Part shown: piece by piece, positions 56,454-62,602 of the stretch
How the letters are laid out: each line of letters begins with the position of its first letter
Numbering within the stretch: the stretch's first letter is position 1
Assembly (NCBI GenBank): GCA_017404935.1
Contig: JAFRBI010000004.1
Span: 23,551 to 87,550, forward strand
From: Candidatus Saccharimonadota bacterium
Lineage (GTDB): Bacteria; Patescibacteriota; Saccharimonadia; Saccharimonadales; Saccharimonadaceae
Length of the DNA stretch: 64,000 bases
Direction: 5' to 3'
Made by a program: the position numbers and the translations under genes
The notes under the pieces: model-generated
The model's database searches: none
What the model was told of the DNA's origin: nothing
The model's input: only the letters and a program-made list of their open reading frames with translations

Positions 56454-57371
56454 TTAGGCGGTTTGGGTGGATTTTTTGCGGTTTCTGGCTTTTACGATGA
56501 GCCAGGTGATAATTGCAATGATTACAAAGACGATGATAAAGAATAGCCAGAGAGGGCACTTAATCACGAGCTTGGTCACCTCTGTAGTTACACCCTCAAA
56601 TTCTACGGTGTATTTGACGTTGAAGATGCCTACCATTGGAGTCTGGTCCCAAGTGGATTTATAAGTAAGAGTGCGATCTGGTAAAATTAATTTTGTCTCT
56701 GGGTTTTCTTCGTTAGTGTAGATTTCTTCACTAGAAAATAGCGGAAATACCTGCAATTTATAGGTAGCTTTGCTGTGCACGTTACCAGTATTTTTGAGAG
56801 TAGATTCTGCAGTGATATTGCCATCAAAGATGAAACTTGGCACATTGGTCCCAATTGTTTCTCCGCTACGTTCAGTAGTACCTGCAATTTCGGCATAAAT
56901 TATATAGGCAGTTCCAAAGCTCACTTTAATATTGGTGCCGTTTTCTTCATTATTGTTTTCAGGTACATGGATTGCCTTAATTGCAGCATATTGACCTCCA
57001 GATGGAGCATTTTCTGGAACATTAATTGTATATTTTATCTCTTTATTAGAGTTTGGAATTAAGACCCCAGTATTATTGTCTTCCAAAGTTATCCAATCTA
57101 CTATTTGGTTATAGTCACCATTATTAGTGTAATAGATGTCATAATTTTCATCTACATAAAATGGTTCAACACTAATTTTGTAATGTATATCTTCTGTATT
57201 TTTTGCTTGATTTGATATTTTAAAAGAACCTGTATATGTCTTGCCCGGTACAAGGACCATAGTTTGGTTTAAAGGCGACAATGTAATGCCAGTATCAGCA
57301 AATGTTGGCGATACTATACTAATTAAACTAATAAATATGCTGGTTGTTATTGCGATAATTTTCTTTTTCAT
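56454..57371 (-). CDS. Left cassette gene 3: DUF916/WxL-partner-like surface protein
   Basis: 305 residues: signal peptide (1-25), two beta-sandwich domains (about 28-130 and 140-250) and a C-terminal membrane helix (about 272-295) with a basic tail. The opening pattern (ITLSPLNQTMVLVPGKTYTGSFKISN, split over the first strands; WI after VD; NVPENAPSGGQYAA) is that of DUF916-type proteins, which bind peptidoglycan and WxL proteins in Gram-positives. Paralogue of the gene at 62644: the last 70 residues are almost the same, the ectodomain differs. Confidence 0.78.
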   Translation of the reverse strand: MKKKIIAITTSIFISLISIVSPTFADTGITLSPLNQTMVLVPGKTYTGSFKISNQAKNTEDIHYKISVEPFYVDENYDIYYTNNGDYNQIVDWITLEDNNTGVLIPNSNKEIKYTINVPENAPSGGQYAAIKAIHVPENNNEENGTNIKVSFGTAYIIYAEIAGTTERSGETIGTNVPSFIFDGNITAESTLKNTGNVHSKATYKLQVFPLFSSEEIYTNEENPETKLILPDRTLTYKSTWDQTPMVGIFNVKYTVEFEGVTTEVTKLVIKCPLWLFFIIVFVIIAIITWLIVKARNRKKSTQTA

Positions 57372-57382
57372 ATTACCTCCTT

Positions 57383-57961
57383 CTAATTATCTTTCTCGCA
57401 TTTAAAACCTTGATTTTTATAATTTCTAGCATACCTACCAATAGATGAATCTACCGGAATATCATTTATTAGAAAGAATTTGCCAGAATCTTCGTTTAAA
57501 TTGGCCATCGTAGCATGCAAAGTCAAAATCATTTCACTATTCGTTCTAGTATAATTCGCATTTAGAGCGTCTGCTTCTAGCCCCACTTTTGCAAAATTGA
57601 TGTTCATTGCTGCATGGTTATGTGCTTCGCTAGTTGTAACAGCTCTTTCATTATCATATTTTAATGAGTAAATGAAAGATATACTATTCAGCTTCTTATC
57701 TTTAAATAACATATTTATAGTGGCTTCTTTGCTACTAGACTCATCATATATAAAGAAAGGATACTCTATTTTAGCAGCTGTACAAGTTAGGGAGGAATCT
57801 TTGACATCATCTGGGTATTCACCAGTAGTTTTAACATCTCCTTTCATTAGGAGCCAAAAAACAAAGACAATGAGAAGTATTACGCCTACTGCGAGTATAA
57901 TAATCCACCAATTTTTATTGGATTTATTGGACTTTTTAGATTTTTCTGTATTTTCCTCCAT
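57383..57961 (-). CDS. Left cassette gene 2: membrane-anchored protein with paralogue at 62030
   Basis: 192 residues. The first 53 residues (Lys/Ser/Asn-rich tail, NWWIIILAVGVILLIVFVFW helix, GEYPDDV) are identical to those of the 62030 product; the outside domain after that is clearly diverged. Two or three cysteines occur in the ectodomain. AAGGAAAAG precedes ATG. No family recognised. It lies between the surface protein (gene 1) and the DUF916-like protein (gene 3). Confidence 0.82.
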   Translation of the reverse strand: MEENTEKSKKSNKSNKNWWIIILAVGVILLIVFVFWLLMKGDVKTTGEYPDDVKDSSLTCTAAKIEYPFFIYDESSSKEATINMLFKDKKLNSISFIYSLKYDNERAVTTSEAHNHAAMNINFAKVGLEADALNANYTRTNSEMILTLHATMANLNEDSGKFFLINDIPVDSSIGRYARNYKNQGFKCEKDN

Positions 57962-58042
57962 CTTTTCCTTTCTTTAGTGTTATTAATTATTATTTCATCT
58001 TCGTATTAAAAATACGGTCCCACCCCAAGACCGTATTTTTAA
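57804..58042 (-). repeat. Inverted repeat 2, left arm
   Basis: 239 bases nearly identical, in opposite orientation, to 61952-62187. Differences seen: one base in the coding part, one near 58000 and a 3-base indel before the gene-2 SD. It covers the gene 1-gene 2 intergenic terminator and the first 53 codons of gene 2. Confidence 0.93.
58008..58040 (-). terminator. Intra-operon terminator, left cassette
   Basis: 12-bp perfect stem (58008-58019 with 58029-58040) between gene 1 and gene 2; T-run on the minus strand. It is identical to the one at 61954-61986. Confidence 0.9.
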
Positions 58043-58056
58043 TTCTGCTAAATTAC

Positions 58057-58668
58057 TTATGGTAATTGTGTAAGGGTATATTCAATAGTGCCCTCGTAAG
58101 TCTGTGCAGACAATAAGTGGTCTACGGATACGCCATATTGTACTTTAAAGTCGCGACCTGCAGTTGGCGTAGTCACAGCGCTCTGTGCTACGATGTTAGA
58201 TGCAGTAGTAAAAGTACCAGTATTGGTGATATTGGAATCGTTACTAGAAGATGTATATTGCCAGGCTGCGGTATCGCTAGCGATAGCGCCTACTGGGATA
58301 CTTTCAGTATTGGTAGTCAAACCTGTAAGAGGGTTAGCGGCTGCAGTAACCTTCCAACCACCAGCATTATTACATACTACATTAAAATTAGAAGCACCGT
58401 AGTCATTGTCGATCTCGCCTGGAGCCATGGATCCGGATAGAGTGTCAGCAGTCCCAGCGGCAGCAGTACCCCAAGTCCCTCTAGCCGTAGCACTGGAAGC
58501 AACTACATCACCATCTACGTGCGGAGTGGTTGAATTCCTAGTAAGCGTGCAAGCAGGCGCAATAGTCACGCGAATCGTATCTGTGAAGTCCGCTGCCATT
58601 GCACCTACAATCGGCATAGCAGCAAGAGCAACAGAAGCCGCACCAGCTGCAATTATTGATTTTTTCAT
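58057..58668 (-). CDS. Left cassette gene 1: WxL-like secreted surface protein
   Basis: 203 residues with a signal peptide (1-25, ending GAMA). The mature part is Ala/Thr/Ser/Gly-rich beta sequence with two cysteines. The last residues, IEYTLTQLP, resemble the end of WxL domains (W-x-L...P) with Tyr in place of Trp. The DUF916-like partner gene in the same cassette supports a WxL-type surface system. The signal-peptide codons are identical to those of the 61350 gene; the rest differs. GGAGGAG precedes ATG. No good promoter is seen upstream in the present orientation. Confidence 0.75.
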   Translation of the reverse strand: MKKSIIAAGAASVALAAMPIVGAMAADFTDTIRVTIAPACTLTRNSTTPHVDGDVVASSATARGTWGTAAAGTADTLSGSMAPGEIDNDYGASNFNVVCNNAGGWKVTAAANPLTGLTTNTESIPVGAIASDTAAWQYTSSSNDSNITNTGTFTTASNIVAQSAVTTPTAGRDFKVQYGVSVDHLLSAQTYEGTIEYTLTQLP

Positions 58669-58733
58669 TTTGTTTTTCTCCTCCTGCTACTTTTAAAGCA
58701 GAATTAATTTATATTTTGTGTTAAATGTATAAC
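58613..58733 (-). repeat. Inverted repeat 1, left arm
   Basis: 121 bases identical to 61285-61405 in opposite orientation except for one base. It contains 65 bases of leader with the SD and 56 bases of gene 1 coding for the signal peptide. Sequences inside (58734 onward) and further out (58612 and below) differ from the right side at once. Confidence 0.96.
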
Positions 58734-58758
58734 GCAGATGCCTGACAGTGCAGAAAGC

Positions 58759-58786
58759 TTGTCTTTTACGAAAAAAGGTGTATAAT
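58759..58786 (+). promoter_or_regulatory. Inward-facing promoter at the left end of the invertible segment
   Basis: TTGTCT, 16-base spacer, TATAAT on the plus strand. It points away from the left cassette, toward the structured region 58793-58927. Confidence 0.65.
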
Positions 58787-58792
58787 CATGTA

Positions 58793-58927
58793 TAAGGAGT
58801 ATTATCTATAGTAAGATACTCACTAGAGTCGTCCTTTATTATCAATGATAATATTGGCTCCGATTCGCCTTAAGCGAACGCGAATGCGTTGCCAAAATAG
58901 CGATCTTTATGGTCGCTATTTTTGTTC
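58793..58927 (+). ncRNA. Candidate small structured RNA
   Basis: Begins just after a promoter and ends in a 10-bp terminator stem (58894-58903 with 58913-58922) and a T-run. Inside are small stems (GAGTAT/ATACTC, ATTATC/GATAAT, TTCGC/GCGAA). No open frame of note. The 3' end overlaps the DUF3800 gene's end. The segment TTAAGCGAACGCGAAT resembles part of the RNA candidate at 60633. Confidence 0.45.
58894..58925. terminator. Two-way terminator at the DUF3800 gene end
   Basis: 10-bp stem AAAATAGCGA with TCGCTATTTT; A- and T-runs on both sides. Confidence 0.85.
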
Positions 58928-59611
58928 AAAACGATGGTTCTTCAAGTCTCGTTTTATCTTGTCTATAGTTTTGTAATTAAAAAAGCTGATTTCCGTTTTC
59001 GAGAATTTTAACTTATTGCTGTATTTATAGACAAGTTTGTCTACGTAGGTCAGCATATCTGCCACTTGAAATAATTTCTTTTCGGTGTGGTCAAAATCAG
59101 GTTTTTTCTCGTACCCATTTAATTCTCCAAAAACTTTGTCAATAATTTTGCTCAATTGCCTCTGGCCACCATCATAATATACTTTTATTTCATCAAAATT
59201 TTGAAAATATTTTAGATTACTAAGGATTAATTCTTGCAAGGCCTTTTCTATTCGTCCTTCTAGAGCGTGATTAGTGTTAAAATCTTTTTTATCAATAAAA
59301 AATGAATAGTAGTTTGCTGGTATAGTAGACGCAAATTTATGTAATTGTATATAGATTTTTCGTCTTTCTTTGATGTTCATTCCTATAAAATCCCCATGCC
59401 CAGAGACTAAATCTCCCATATGAATCATCGAATGAAAATTGAGATGTTCTAGTCTTTCATTTAGGGTATTTAACTCATTCGAGATGCTTGCAGACTGTTC
59501 ATGAAATACTAAAGAAACGCCATAAAATCTAGCGGCACCCCTAACAAAACCAAACTCGCCAGTTTCATCAATAAATATGTTTAAACGTTTATTCAGTGTA
59601 ATTTTTGTCAT
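58916..59611 (-). CDS. DUF3800-domain protein
   Basis: 231 residues (a GTG nine bases earlier is possible; GGAG lies just before ATG 59611). The N-terminal FIDETGEFGF and C-terminal KLFQVADMLTYVDKLVYKY with YYDGGQRQL are typical of DUF3800, a predicted RNase H-like fold common in mobile DNA and defence islands. Acidic residues in IDETGE and QVADM may bind metal. It lies inside the invertible segment together with the recombinase. Function unknown. Confidence 0.83.
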   Translation of the reverse strand: MTKITLNKRLNIFIDETGEFGFVRGAARFYGVSLVFHEQSASISNELNTLNERLEHLNFHSMIHMGDLVSGHGDFIGMNIKERRKIYIQLHKFASTIPANYYSFFIDKKDFNTNHALEGRIEKALQELILSNLKYFQNFDEIKVYYDGGQRQLSKIIDKVFGELNGYEKKPDFDHTEKKLFQVADMLTYVDKLVYKYSNKLKFSKTEISFFNYKTIDKIKRDLKNHRFEQK

Positions 59612-59745
59612 TTTCTCCACTCTTTTGGCTTTGTTGCGATTATAATATCACAAATATACCCTTTCCCCAAGCATGAGCGTCTTGATATGACAGAGGCATG
59701 GGGTAATTTCATTAATTATATTAATATCATAATCATGGAGTTTAC

Positions 59746-60594
59746 ATGAAAATTGACAATCAAATTATCAAATATTTAAATTACTGTAAAAGTATTCGCC
59801 AAATGTCGCTGAATACTTTAAATAATAAACGAGCAATTTTAAATCAGTTTGTTAAAAATACTGAGATTACTTCTGCAACAGAGCTGGATAATCAAATTTA
59901 TAATAAATGGCTGGAATTAAAGCTGAGGCACCATCTATCGCCAGCTTCTGTTAATATATACAACTCTACGATTGTAAGTTTTTTGAAATTTCACCAAAAT
60001 GCTGGGTTAGAAATTACTTTTGATTTTAATTTGGTGCCATATTTTAGAGCCGCAAAAACCTCTCGTAAATTTTATACGGATTCGGAGATTTCTCAAGTCT
60101 TAAAATACGCAGACGAAAGTGAAGGGTTAATGATTACGATTATGTTTGAAACCGGTATGCGAATTGCCGAAATCGCAAATTTGAAAGTAGAAAATCTTAA
60201 TGGCACTAAAATAAGTTTTGTTGGCAAAGGTGGAAAAATGCGCGTGGTTTATCTTAGTATAAATACTTCCAAAAATCTACGTGCTTATCTTAAAAAATAT
60301 CATATTAAAGATGGGTATATTTGGTGTGTGTTAAACGGAGTGAAAACTCTTAATGCTATACCGCCGACCATAAACACTATTAGAAAAAACCTACAAAATG
60401 TTTTTCAGAAAGCTGGTTTTGGAGGGTTTTACCCGCACGCCCTTAGACATTCTTTTGCTACGAATCTGCAGAAAAAAGGTGCCAGCGTGATGGAAATTAA
60501 AGAAATGATGGGGCACAGCAGCATCGCTACTACAGAGAGATATTTGCACGGGTTTGATGGAAAATTAGAGGAGTTATTTAAAAAATATCAATAA
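59746..60594 (+). CDS. Tyrosine recombinase (XerC/XerD-like)
   Basis: 282 residues: N-terminal SAM-like DNA-binding domain (about 1-100) and a complete catalytic domain. Arg139 (ETGMRIAEI), a lysine in VGKGGKMRVV, His231-x-x-Arg234 (PHALRHSFAT), His257 (MMGHSS) and nucleophile Tyr266 (TERYLHG) are all present. It could be the chromosomal Xer protein, but its position in the middle of a 2.55-kb segment bounded by a 121-bp inverted repeat suggests a local invertase. AT-rich DNA upstream with a CCCCAAGCATG/CATGGGG hairpin (about 59670-59705). No clear SD (TGGAG seven bases before ATG). Confidence 0.93.
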   Translation: MKIDNQIIKYLNYCKSIRQMSLNTLNNKRAILNQFVKNTEITSATELDNQIYNKWLELKLRHHLSPASVNIYNSTIVSFLKFHQNAGLEITFDFNLVPYFRAAKTSRKFYTDSEISQVLKYADESEGLMITIMFETGMRIAEIANLKVENLNGTKISFVGKGGKMRVVYLSINTSKNLRAYLKKYHIKDGYIWCVLNGVKTLNAIPPTINTIRKNLQNVFQKAGFGGFYPHALRHSFATNLQKKGASVMEIKEMMGHSSIATTERYLHGFDGKLEELFKKYQ

Positions 60595-60597
60595 AAC

Positions 60598-60626
60598 TTG
60601 ACATTTTCTTGACTTTTTGATACAAT
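60598..60626 (+). promoter_or_regulatory. Classical promoter downstream of the recombinase
   Basis: TTGACA, 17-base spacer, TACAAT, starting one base after the recombinase stop. It reads into a short transcript ending at about 60691. Confidence 0.8.
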
Positions 60627-60632
60627 AGATAC

Positions 60633-60691
60633 ATCACCATTACCGGGCTAGCCTAAGGTTCTTGTACCGAACGCAAATCCCGGTTATTTTT
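60633..60691 (+). ncRNA. Candidate short RNA of about 60 bases
   Basis: It runs from just after the promoter to a terminator: outer stem ACCGGG (60642-60647) with CCCGGT (60679-60684), inner GTTC/GAAC, then seven T. No coding frame. It overlaps the 3' end of the convergent NYN gene. Confidence 0.5.
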
Positions 60692-61190
60692 TTACTCGTT
60701 TTTGATAAATAGTGGCCAGAGGCAAAATTAGCTTATTGTATGGTTTTAATAATTTTGAATATCTCAATGTGGGAGTAATTATTTTTGCAAGTTTATTATT
60801 ATCTACCAAATATCTCATTAAACAAGTAAAATCTCCATCGCTAGATACGATAATTGCCTTATCGTAGTTGTTGAATTCAATTGCGGAAGAGTATAGTACG
60901 AGCTCTGCGTCCACATTACCTTTCATTGTGCGTTCACCAGTAGTTTCATCTGTGTAGGGGATTGTGGGTTTAAAGATCAAGATATAGCCGTGGCTCTGAA
61001 GATAATTATAGAGTGGGGTATTATGAACATCATATCCGATAAATAGAAAAGCCTTATTAACATTCATCTTAGATCTAAGATATTTACGAAATTCACCGTA
61101 ATTTAAATCTATATTTTGAGATTTTGCACCAAGATATAAATTGTTGCCGTCTATAAAAGCATAATTTTTGATGATATTTTGCTTTTTCAT
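60684..61190 (-). CDS. NYN-domain (LabA/DUF88-like) ribonuclease-fold protein
   Basis: 168 residues. The PIN-like NYN fold shows FIDGNNLYLGAK (Asp near residue 14), KGNVDAELVLYSSA (Asp about 94) and IIVSSDGDFTCLMRYLV (Asp about 116 and 118). The metal-binding acids look intact, so RNA cleavage is possible. Leaderless: the minus-strand TATAAT at 61197-61202 ends six bases from ATG 61190. It lies inside the invertible segment with the recombinase and the DUF3800 gene. Confidence 0.88.
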   Translation of the reverse strand: MKKQNIIKNYAFIDGNNLYLGAKSQNIDLNYGEFRKYLRSKMNVNKAFLFIGYDVHNTPLYNYLQSHGYILIFKPTIPYTDETTGERTMKGNVDAELVLYSSAIEFNNYDKAIIVSSDGDFTCLMRYLVDNNKLAKIITPTLRYSKLLKPYNKLILPLATIYQKRVKK

Positions 61191-61241
61191 AAGACCATTA
61201 TACCATTATATTGACTTGTGAAAAAGTCTATTAAAAAAGTG

Positions 61242-61270
61242 TTGACAAAGCGCTTTTGCTTGGCTATAAT
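61242..61270 (+). promoter_or_regulatory. Strong outward promoter next to inverted repeat 1, right side
   Basis: TTGACA, 17-base spacer, TATAAT. It lies inside the unique segment, 15 bases before the repeat, and reads the right cassette. No equivalent exists beside the left repeat. Confidence 0.92.
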
Positions 61271-61284
61271 TGGAAATGTTAAAG

Positions 61285-61405
61285 GTTATACATTTAACAC
61301 AAAATATAAAATAATTCTGCTTTAAAAGTAGCAGGAGGAGAAAAACAAAATGAAAAAATCAATAATTGCAGCTGGTGCGGCTTCTGTTGCTCTTGCTGCT
61401 ATGCC
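61285..61405 (+). repeat. Inverted repeat 1, right arm
   Basis: Partner of 58613-58733. At its inner edge TGTTAAA (61277-61283), nine bases, TTTAACA (61293-61299) form a small dyad like a tyrosine-recombinase core site; only the outer half is kept on the left side. Confidence 0.96.
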
Positions 61406-61934
61406 TGTGGTTGGTGCGTTTGCAGCCTTCACTGGTGGTCCATTCACGGATGTGATCCAGACTACGATTGACGAAACTTGTACTTTCGCTCGTGGCGCTA
61501 CTGCCCACGGTGCAGGTGAAACCTGGACTACTGATACTACGGTAACTACTAAAGATACTTTGAGCGCTGTTACTATTACTCCAGCAGCCGCTGAAGCAAC
61601 TCTTGGTACTTCTAACTTTAGAGTAGTTTGCAACGATACCGATGGTTATAAAGTAACTGTAGGCACTAATCCGCTAGCTCTGCCTACTGGTACTACTCAA
61701 GTACACACTTGGGCGTATAATGCTGGTGCGGCACCATCATCGCCAACTGCTTCCTATTGGAGAATTGGTTCTACTGGTGATGGCGTAGATCTTTCCAACA
61801 ACATCGTAAGCACTAAGGCTTCTGCTGAAGATGGTAAAGATTTTACAGTTACTTATTATGCATACGCTATTACTGGTCAAGATGCTGGTACTTATAGCGC
61901 AGAAGTAACTTATACTGCTGCACAATTGCCGTAA
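61350..61934 (+). CDS. Right cassette gene 1: WxL-like secreted surface protein
   Basis: 194 residues: the same signal peptide as the 58057 product (first 18 residues identical), then a diverged Thr/Ala-rich beta domain with two cysteines and the ending VTYTAAQLP. It is driven by a consensus promoter (61242-61270) and GGAGGAG, so it should be strongly made. An internal terminator after it would keep genes 2 and 3 lower. Probably the major surface subunit of this cassette. Confidence 0.78.
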   Translation: MKKSIIAAGAASVALAAMPVVGAFAAFTGGPFTDVIQTTIDETCTFARGATAHGAGETWTTDTTVTTKDTLSAVTITPAAAEATLGTSNFRVVCNDTDGYKVTVGTNPLALPTGTTQVHTWAYNAGAAPSSPTASYWRIGSTGDGVDLSNNIVSTKASAEDGKDFTVTYYAYAITGQDAGTYSAEVTYTAAQLP

Positions 61935-61951
61935 TTCTAGCGGTAGAAATT

Positions 61952-62187
61952 TTAAAAATACGGTCTTGGGGTGGGACCGTATTTTTAATACGAAGACGAA
62001 ATAATAATTAATACATAAGAAAGGAAAAGATGGAGGAAAATACAGAAAAATCTAAAAAGTCCAATAAATCCAATAAAAATTGGTGGATTATTATACTCGC
62101 AGTAGGCGTAATACTTCTCATTGTCTTTGTTTTTTGGCTTCTAATGAAAGGAGATGTTAAAACTACTGGTGAATACCCAGATGATGT
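61952..62187 (+). repeat. Inverted repeat 2, right arm
   Basis: Partner of 57804-58042. It covers the gene 1-gene 2 gap and the first 53 codons of gene 2. Confidence 0.93.
61954..61986 (+). terminator. Intra-operon terminator, right cassette
   Basis: 12-bp perfect stem (61954-61965 with 61975-61986), T-rich 3' side, identical to the left copy. Probably partial, to make gene 1 more abundant than genes 2 and 3. Confidence 0.9.
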
Positions 62188-62602
62188 TTCTCCACAGTCC
62201 TTAGAATGTGTTAAAAAAGATGTAGCTTACAAATTCTTTACCCATGATAACCCAGAAAATGCAGAGATTAAGATCACTGCTATCTTTGCTAAAAGTAGAA
62301 TAGATTCAGTCTCTTTAATACATAGAACTACTTATGATAGCAAAGAATATACCAAAACTATGTCAGACGCTCATGAAGGTGATATGAATATTAGCTTCCA
62401 AACTGGTGGTATGAAACCATATTCTCTTGGCGCTACTTATTCTCAAGATGACGAAACCGCTCAAATGGCACTCTATGCTAAAGCATCTGAGTTAAACGAC
62501 CAAACTATTAAATACTTTATGTTAGACAGCGTTCCAGAGAATTTAACAGGCTATAAGAGAGGTTATCTCGCCCAAGGCTTTACCTGCGAGATTAAAAGAT
62601 AA
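62030..62602 (+). CDS. Right cassette gene 2: membrane-anchored protein
   Basis: 190 residues. The N-terminal 53 residues are identical to the 57383 product (cytoplasmic Lys/Ser/Asn tail and membrane helix); the ectodomain is diverged but keeps similar length and a C-terminal cysteine (GFTCEIKR compared with GFKCEKDN). AAGGAAAAG precedes ATG. Family unknown. Confidence 0.82.
   Translation: MEENTEKSKKSNKSNKNWWIIILAVGVILLIVFVFWLLMKGDVKTTGEYPDDVSPQSLECVKKDVAYKFFTHDNPENAEIKITAIFAKSRIDSVSLIHRTTYDSKEYTKTMSDAHEGDMNISFQTGGMKPYSLGATYSQDDETAQMALYAKASELNDQTIKYFMLDSVPENLTGYKRGYLAQGFTCEIKR

Follow-up and report, generated by a model that had tools for sequence, protein, structure and literature searches.

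Locus architecture

The window analyzed here is a stretch of 64,000 nucleotides from a Candidatus Saccharimonadota bacterium of the family Saccharimonadaceae (GenBank assembly GCA_017404935.1, contig JAFRBI010000004.1, positions 23,551 to 87,550). Our subject is a locus within it at which a tyrosine recombinase gene lies between two inverted repeats; coordinates of its features are collected in Table 1. The repeats are 121 bp long and 99% identical, with a single mismatch, and 2,551 nt lie between them; a repeat finder stretches the inverted pair to 142 nt at 94%. Each arm comprises the leader, ribosome-binding site (RBS), ATG, and first 18 to 19 signal-peptide codons of an outward-pointing open reading frame. 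An earlier note, made from the sequence without database searches, had reported these repeats, the complete recombinase between them, and the entry of both arms into the signal-peptide codons of outward-facing surface genes, and had proposed a promoter-inversion switch. All of these observations held up on reanalysis: the recombinase is a complete member of PF00589 (E value, 1.2e-27), and the description of the products as surface proteins is supported by their signal peptides and by the WxLIP-like predicted fold of a third gene. The note had overlooked that both flanks are three-gene cassettes, each encoding a surface protein, a small membrane protein, and a WxLIP-like protein and all facing away from the segment, and that the segment also encodes a DUF3800 protein and an NYN-domain protein.

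In a whole-genome comparison, the 121-bp repeat was absent elsewhere in the 740-kb genome. The sole further match was one of 32 bp on contig C5, to sequence within the segment and not to the arms. The pattern of the core site found in each arm had two matches in this genome, both at the locus. Going outward, the left and right sides are 98 to 100% identical over the ~120 bp of the arms and 45 to 70% identical, mostly ~50%, in the mature surface gene. Identity returns to 92 to 100% in a second inverted block of ~240 bp, also missed earlier, and is ~55% outside it, climbing again within the WxLIP genes, which hold an inverted repeat of 363 nt at 77%.

A single outward promoter

Between positions 57300 and 62700 we detected one sigma-70-type promoter with a perfect 12/12 match, which lies inside the segment and ends 14 bp short of the right arm. 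The same scan found no outward promoter-like site at the left inner edge of the segment. It returned 19 promoter-like sites in total versus 21.8 in shuffled sequences, so only match quality and position are informative. When the segment (58734 to 61284) was flipped in silico, the left gene gained the identical promoter, with a leader differing by one base, and the right gene was left without a promoter. Both analyses agree with the earlier proposal that the only strong outward promoter faces right and that a flip would shift it to the left.

We conclude that this segment is very probably an inverton, whose own Xer-like tyrosine recombinase would flip the single promoter between the two cassettes via 18-bp core sites. 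The recombinase would recombine the two cores in the inverted leaders, and the outward promoter, which now serves the right surface cassette, would then serve the left one. Flipping would occur within a strain, only the cassette facing the promoter would be expressed, and the cassette products may serve as alternative coats in contact with host cells or phages.

Promoter orientation in related genomes

Relatives were compared in a genus set of 174 genomes, that of the window included. Judged from these sequences, the clearest case for a real inversion is the pair G017 and G071, in which left flank, recombinase, and cassettes stand in the same order. The two loci are collinear on the left, through the flank with the recombinase and the start of the WxLIP gene (66%), and on the right, through the cassette from the site outward (73.5%). 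Their promoter ends match in inverted orientation only (80%), and the promoter is directed at the right cassette in G017 and at the left one in G071. The right surface proteins are 77% identical and the right WxLIPs 73%; the left WxLIPs are 51% identical in parallel versus 40 to 41% crosswise. The left surface proteins have diverged too far for pairing (36% in parallel, 29 to 36% crosswise), a weak point of the comparison, so left collinearity rests on the WxLIP gene and the flank. Since the promoter faces opposite ways in two related species, the segment likely flips. The earlier note had named a uniform orientation among relatives, together with diverged repeats, as what would speak against a switch; we found both orientations between these related species, and inverted leaders that align at 74 to 100% within recombinase-bearing genomes.

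Could an inversion of the whole locus, rather than of the promoter, underlie the orientation differences? The 363-nt repeat in the WxLIP genes offers outer arms for such an event, and matches between G181 and G185 and between G087 and G181 suggest that cassettes moved as well. In G017 and G071, however, the right cassettes and the left WxLIP genes run parallel and the promoter end alone is inverted, and we regard this explanation as very improbable. Opposite promoter directions relative to shared flanks also occur in G181/G185 and in G153/G099. Because cassette pairing there is ambiguous, and so weak that the entire locus may have inverted, both pairs were kept outside the main argument.

We give equally little credence to a static inverted duplication, that is, two cassettes with similar leaders and no present-day switching. 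It is hard to reconcile with the opposite orientations in G017 and G071, with 99% identity over 121 bp adjoining ~50% in the mature gene, and with retention of the catalytic residues of the recombinase, although it would account for the one orientation seen in the window, for a broken recombinase in G185, and for some relatives, such as G087, in which one cassette is fused to the promoter and the recombinase is missing. The G087 locus is syntenic with those of G181 and G185 and is plausibly a locked descendant.

The recombinase and its distribution

The recombinase is similar to the Xer family: its closest solved structures are 4a8e (XerC-like) and 5hxy (XerA), and XerD proteins are also among its solved relatives. 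Residues R139, K164, H231, R234, H257, and Y266 do not vary among the 14 recombinases aligned, the window copy included. By PF00589, the genome encodes just one other tyrosine recombinase.

Thirty of the 174 genomes have a recombinase match with an E value of 1e-55 or better, and 20 have one that is at least 45% identical, a cutoff chosen after the gap to the next best match (42%) was seen. In all 20, hereafter the recombinase genomes, a cassette gene or leader is found no more than ~3 kb from the recombinase gene; in G186 it is a WxLIP fragment at a contig end. In a tree of 39 recombinases, the 21 switch-linked copies from these 20 genomes group together on one side of a branch (99/97); the tree is unrooted, a housekeeping XerC outgroup having been dropped after it left the backbone unresolved.

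Eighteen of the 20 recombinase genomes have the site pattern at the locus, versus 10 of the 154 others that have it anywhere (Fisher P = 1.6e-15), and at least two matches occur in 16 of the 20 versus 1 of the 154. Reversed as a control, the pattern had nine matches across the 174 genomes. The sites of G181 are a variant that the generic pattern misses. Four genomes (G000, G095, G099, and G139) have the recombinase gene between the paired sites, and nine (G017, G062, G071, G093, G106, G132, G153, G181, and G185) have it outside them; three sites share one locus in G093, G132, and G153. When 27 leaders of 13 genomes were aligned, they had a core in common, followed by a hairpin, the RBS, and the signal peptide.

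Among the loci retrieved, two or three sites could be read in 15 recombinase genomes (35 sites in total), and in every one of these genomes a single site, no more and no fewer, has the promoter; the chance probability of this is 7.7e-5 if genomes are treated as independent. Elsewhere, G008 has a single site, with a promoter, and G147 has one site with a promoter and another cut by a contig end. Two genomes without the recombinase have more than one promoter-linked leader: G024 has two sites, both promoter bearing, and G134 has two such leaders on two contigs. A strict promoter-plus-site form, which misses variants such as those of G095, G099, and G153, has a single genome-wide match in each of 15 of the 174 genomes, with none for the reversed control, and the recombinase is present in 10 of the 15. 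Searched for by itself, the promoter pattern has one match in 15 of the 20 recombinase genomes and two each in G106 and G132; it has no match in G008 (a variant), G116, or G186. Seven of the 39 pattern sites lie within ~130 bp of a contig end (two in G034, two in G147, and one each in G008, G116, and G082), as expected of assemblers that cannot pass such a repeat, flipping or not.

We also detected distant recombinases (30 to 33% identity) in G023 (L094, 9610 to 10891) and G066 (L092, 9130 to 10511; one in-frame TAG), each flanked by a pair of inverted repeats, which measure 149 bp (100%) and 156 bp (87%). These repeats enter signal-peptide codons near WxLIP-like genes, and the leaders, of another signal-peptide family, perhaps mark a second inverton type in the genus. 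Recombinases at 33 to 42% identity (e.g., in G070, G083, G175, G160, G102, G468, and G400) had no inverted leaders nearby within contig reach; G100 has a 98-bp inverted pair (73%) ~1 kb from its recombinase. In an order-level sample of 392 genomes, profile matches at an E value of 1e-60 or better were found in 21, of which 4 lie outside the genus, all in the same family. A scan of genome contigs returned two loci; the nearest, in a Saccharibacteria metagenome-assembled genome, encodes a recombinase with 38% identity and is without such leaders.

Two further observations concern individual loci. Contig C11 of G134 matches G139 across 4,767 bp at 99.75% identity, and its end falls just within the predicted segment (L158, L109). 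At L082 (8735 to 9253) and L114 (16108 to 16617), a surface-protein gene lies inside the predicted invertible segment, possibly as a silent donor or a third coat.

The core site

Seventy matches to the promoter family and its TGTTAAAGG element occur in 61 of the 174 genomes. For comparison of the adjoining cores, 65 of these matches (those left out are in G003, G132, G154, G006, and G019) and two near-matches gave 67 rows, of which 10 without a recognizable surface start codon were excluded, leaving 57. The 17- to 18-bp core, which reads TTTAACACAAAATATAAA in the window, was exact in 15 of the 18 promoter-linked copies from recombinase genomes versus 3 of the 39 others (P = 4e-7, uncorrected for phylogeny), with a median of 0 versus 3 mismatches. 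A C follows TAACA in 18 of 18 copies versus 12 of 39. Because the core consensus was derived from the recombinase-bearing genomes themselves, which weakens this comparison, we added a reference-free test; it gave a within-group distance of 1.44 versus 3.29 edits, as low in 0 of 5,000 label permutations, and it likewise ignores phylogeny. From what partner sites share, strand exchange can be narrowed to about AACACAA(A)ATATAA. The core, ATTTAACACAA-AATATA, bears some resemblance to half of a general dif site, the 11+6+11 type of site on which Xer recombinases act. We considered the TGTTAAAGG element as a recombinase arm and rejected it; the element belongs to the promoter whether or not a recombinase is present.

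These data bear on another account of the locus, in which general homologous recombination inverts or homogenizes the repeats and the recombinase is part of a passenger element inserted between duplicated cassettes. Aligned inverted leaders mostly span 120 to 160 bp, codons included, the second block is homogenized at 92 to 100% though it has no core site, and cargo genes sit in the segment, all of which would suit this account. A passenger, however, would not explain why the recombinase lies outside the site pair in G017, G071, G106, G062, and G093 and yet close to such a cassette or leader in every one of the 20 genomes, nor why the core is maintained in genomes with the recombinase and drifts in those lacking it. 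We therefore consider this account unlikely.

Returning to the inverton, we note that several observations weigh against it, in addition to the single orientation of the window assembly. A recombinase site would require much less than the length of these repeats, so there may be a contribution from RecA-type exchange. The G185 recombinase (L115, 9780 to 10604) has two in-frame stops, yet its locus keeps exact core sites; conversely, exact cores persist without a recombinase in G087, G080, and one G024 copy. Among the recombinase genomes, G116 has a single site without a promoter, G082 has three core sites without a promoter, its promoter lying on a different contig next to a core that has diverged, and G186 has no site, its contig ending beside the recombinase. 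The second promoter-pattern matches of G106 and G132 lie elsewhere, that of G106 not at a surface leader. In G095 and G062, the same cassette is ON by position, with the recombinase inside the site pair in G095 and outside it in G062.

The locus nonetheless has three of the features that define a promoter inverton: inverted sites bounding a promoter-ended segment, a linked recombinase with the R-K-H-R-H-Y residues, and both orientations between species. Switching within a strain, its dependence on the recombinase, expression of only the promoter-linked cassette, and an effect on the coat are inferred.

Comparison with known switches

In the fim switch of Escherichia coli, a tyrosine recombinase flips a promoter segment upstream of fiber-subunit genes. 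That switch turns one operon on or off, whereas either orientation here would serve a cassette, and the repeats here are 121 bp long. In the capsule and surface invertons of Bacteroides and in R64-type shufflons, inversion among multiple sites gives alternative surface products, which the three-site loci of G093, G132, and G153 resemble. Unlike in Bacteroides, we saw no global recombinase.

The nearest described mechanism appears, by analogy, to be the Vpma/Xer1 system of Mycoplasma agalactiae. Vpma and the Vsp system of M. bovis have an Xer1-type recombinase beside the locus and one unique promoter (PMC2268961); several surface genes share sequence just upstream of the start codon, and inversion joins a silent gene to the promoter. 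An Xer-like recombinase by the locus, a single promoter, and shared sequence before the start codon are likewise found here. The present locus differs in bacterial lineage, in having WxLIP-like three-gene cassettes where Vpma and Vsp encode lipoproteins, in that the recombinase can sit inside the segment, and in that, for the most part, a promoter would move between two cassettes facing away from each other; it is also known from sequence alone. Clusters of WxL and WxLIP surface genes occur in Gram-positive bacteria (PMC10599100); the third gene here folds most like WxLIP (9i1y) in prediction, and the surface proteins, unlike in those clusters, are without the Trp-x-Leu motif.

In open-licence literature, we found no promoter-inversion switch described for Saccharibacteria, Patescibacteria, or the Candidate Phyla Radiation (CPR), in line with the earlier note, which knew of none in Candidate Phyla bacteria. 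Compared with known switches, what seems new is the lineage, the WxLIP-like and perhaps pilin-like products, a recombinase inside or outside the segment, and loci with two or three sites.

The locus may bear on how episymbiotic Saccharibacteria recognize and change hosts. We lean toward the view that it represents a coat switch of these CPR bacteria, present in about one in nine genomes of the genus, in which a promoter is dealt among two or three opposed cassettes with pilin-like and WxLIP-like products. The switch would allow an epibiont with a reduced genome to vary its grip on host bacteria or to evade phages, cargo genes would ride along, and loss of the recombinase would leave "locked" single cassettes. 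If so, clonal populations would carry mixed coats within a 0.7-Mb genome, host range and phage resistance could change in the absence of mutation, and inversion-based phase variation would extend to a lineage for which we found none described.

Cassette products and other features

The model of the right third-gene product (pLDDT, 81; pTM, 0.53) has a WxLIP-type two-domain fold, as far as prediction can tell. Its three best PDB matches are WxLIP proteins and the next are pilus chaperones, with TM-scores of ~0.4; the WxLIP match 9i1y has the highest rank (E value, 2e-12; TM-score, 0.40). By sequence, the WxLIP similarity of this gene reaches only an E value of 0.04, and Pfam WxLIP_PGBD was found in 13 of 41 homologues at E values up to 0.1, the window copy not among them. 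Neither surface protein of the locus contains a Trp-x-Leu motif. The model of the right surface protein is all beta and weakly pilin-like, and the first-gene products are perhaps pilin-like. Owing to the second homogenized block, the surface gene is a variable stretch flanked by two conserved blocks, and homologous recombination at this block could swap surface genes between partners.

Table 1 Features of the locus (positions in the 64,000-nucleotide window)
Feature	Coordinates	Strand	Remarks
Left inverted repeat	58613..58733	-	Leader, RBS, ATG, and 18 to 19 signal-peptide codons of left surface gene
Right inverted repeat	61285..61405	+	Equivalent content for right surface gene
Left core site, TTTAACACAAAATATAAA	58708..58725	-	Predicted recombinase site
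Right core site, TTTAACACAAAATATAAA	61293..61310	+	Predicted recombinase site
Predicted invertible segment, 2,551 bp	58734..61284		Inversion suggested by relatives
Single outward promoter, TTGACA-17-TATAAT	61242..61270	+	Presently facing right cassette; conserved family
TGTTAAAGG element	61277..61285	+	Accompanies promoter across genus
Tyrosine recombinase, 282 aa	59746..60594	+	PF00589
DUF3800 protein	58916..59620	-	Segment cargo
NYN-domain protein	60684..61190	-	Segment cargo
Left surface protein, 203 aa	58057..58668	-	Signal peptide
Left small membrane protein, 192 aa	57383..57961	-	
Left WxLIP-like protein, 305 aa	56454..57371	-	60% identical to right copy; fold predicted on right copy
Right surface protein, 194 aa	61350..61934	+	Signal peptide; all-beta model, weakly pilin-like
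Right small membrane protein, 190 aa	62030..62602	+	
Right WxLIP-like protein, 313 aa	62644..63585	+	C-terminal membrane helix
Second homogenized inverted block, left copy	57804..58042	-	Covers region behind surface gene plus start of membrane-protein gene
Second homogenized inverted block, right copy	61952..62187	+	

Rfam gave no family at an E value of up to 1 within 57500 to 62300. Two elements in the segment may nevertheless be noted. At 60598 to 60692, a strong promoter-like site (TTGACA-17-TACAAT) precedes a short sequence that can form a hairpin and has a run of T, the whole being convergent with the NYN gene; 56 to 61 nt of this element are 90 to 92% identical at loci L032, L078, and L033, and L032 and L033 are without an NYN match. 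A second likely small RNA, as judged from its sequence, lies at 58759 to 58930, convergent with the DUF3800 gene, beside which it is kept in L077 (84%) and L040 (91% over 44 nt).

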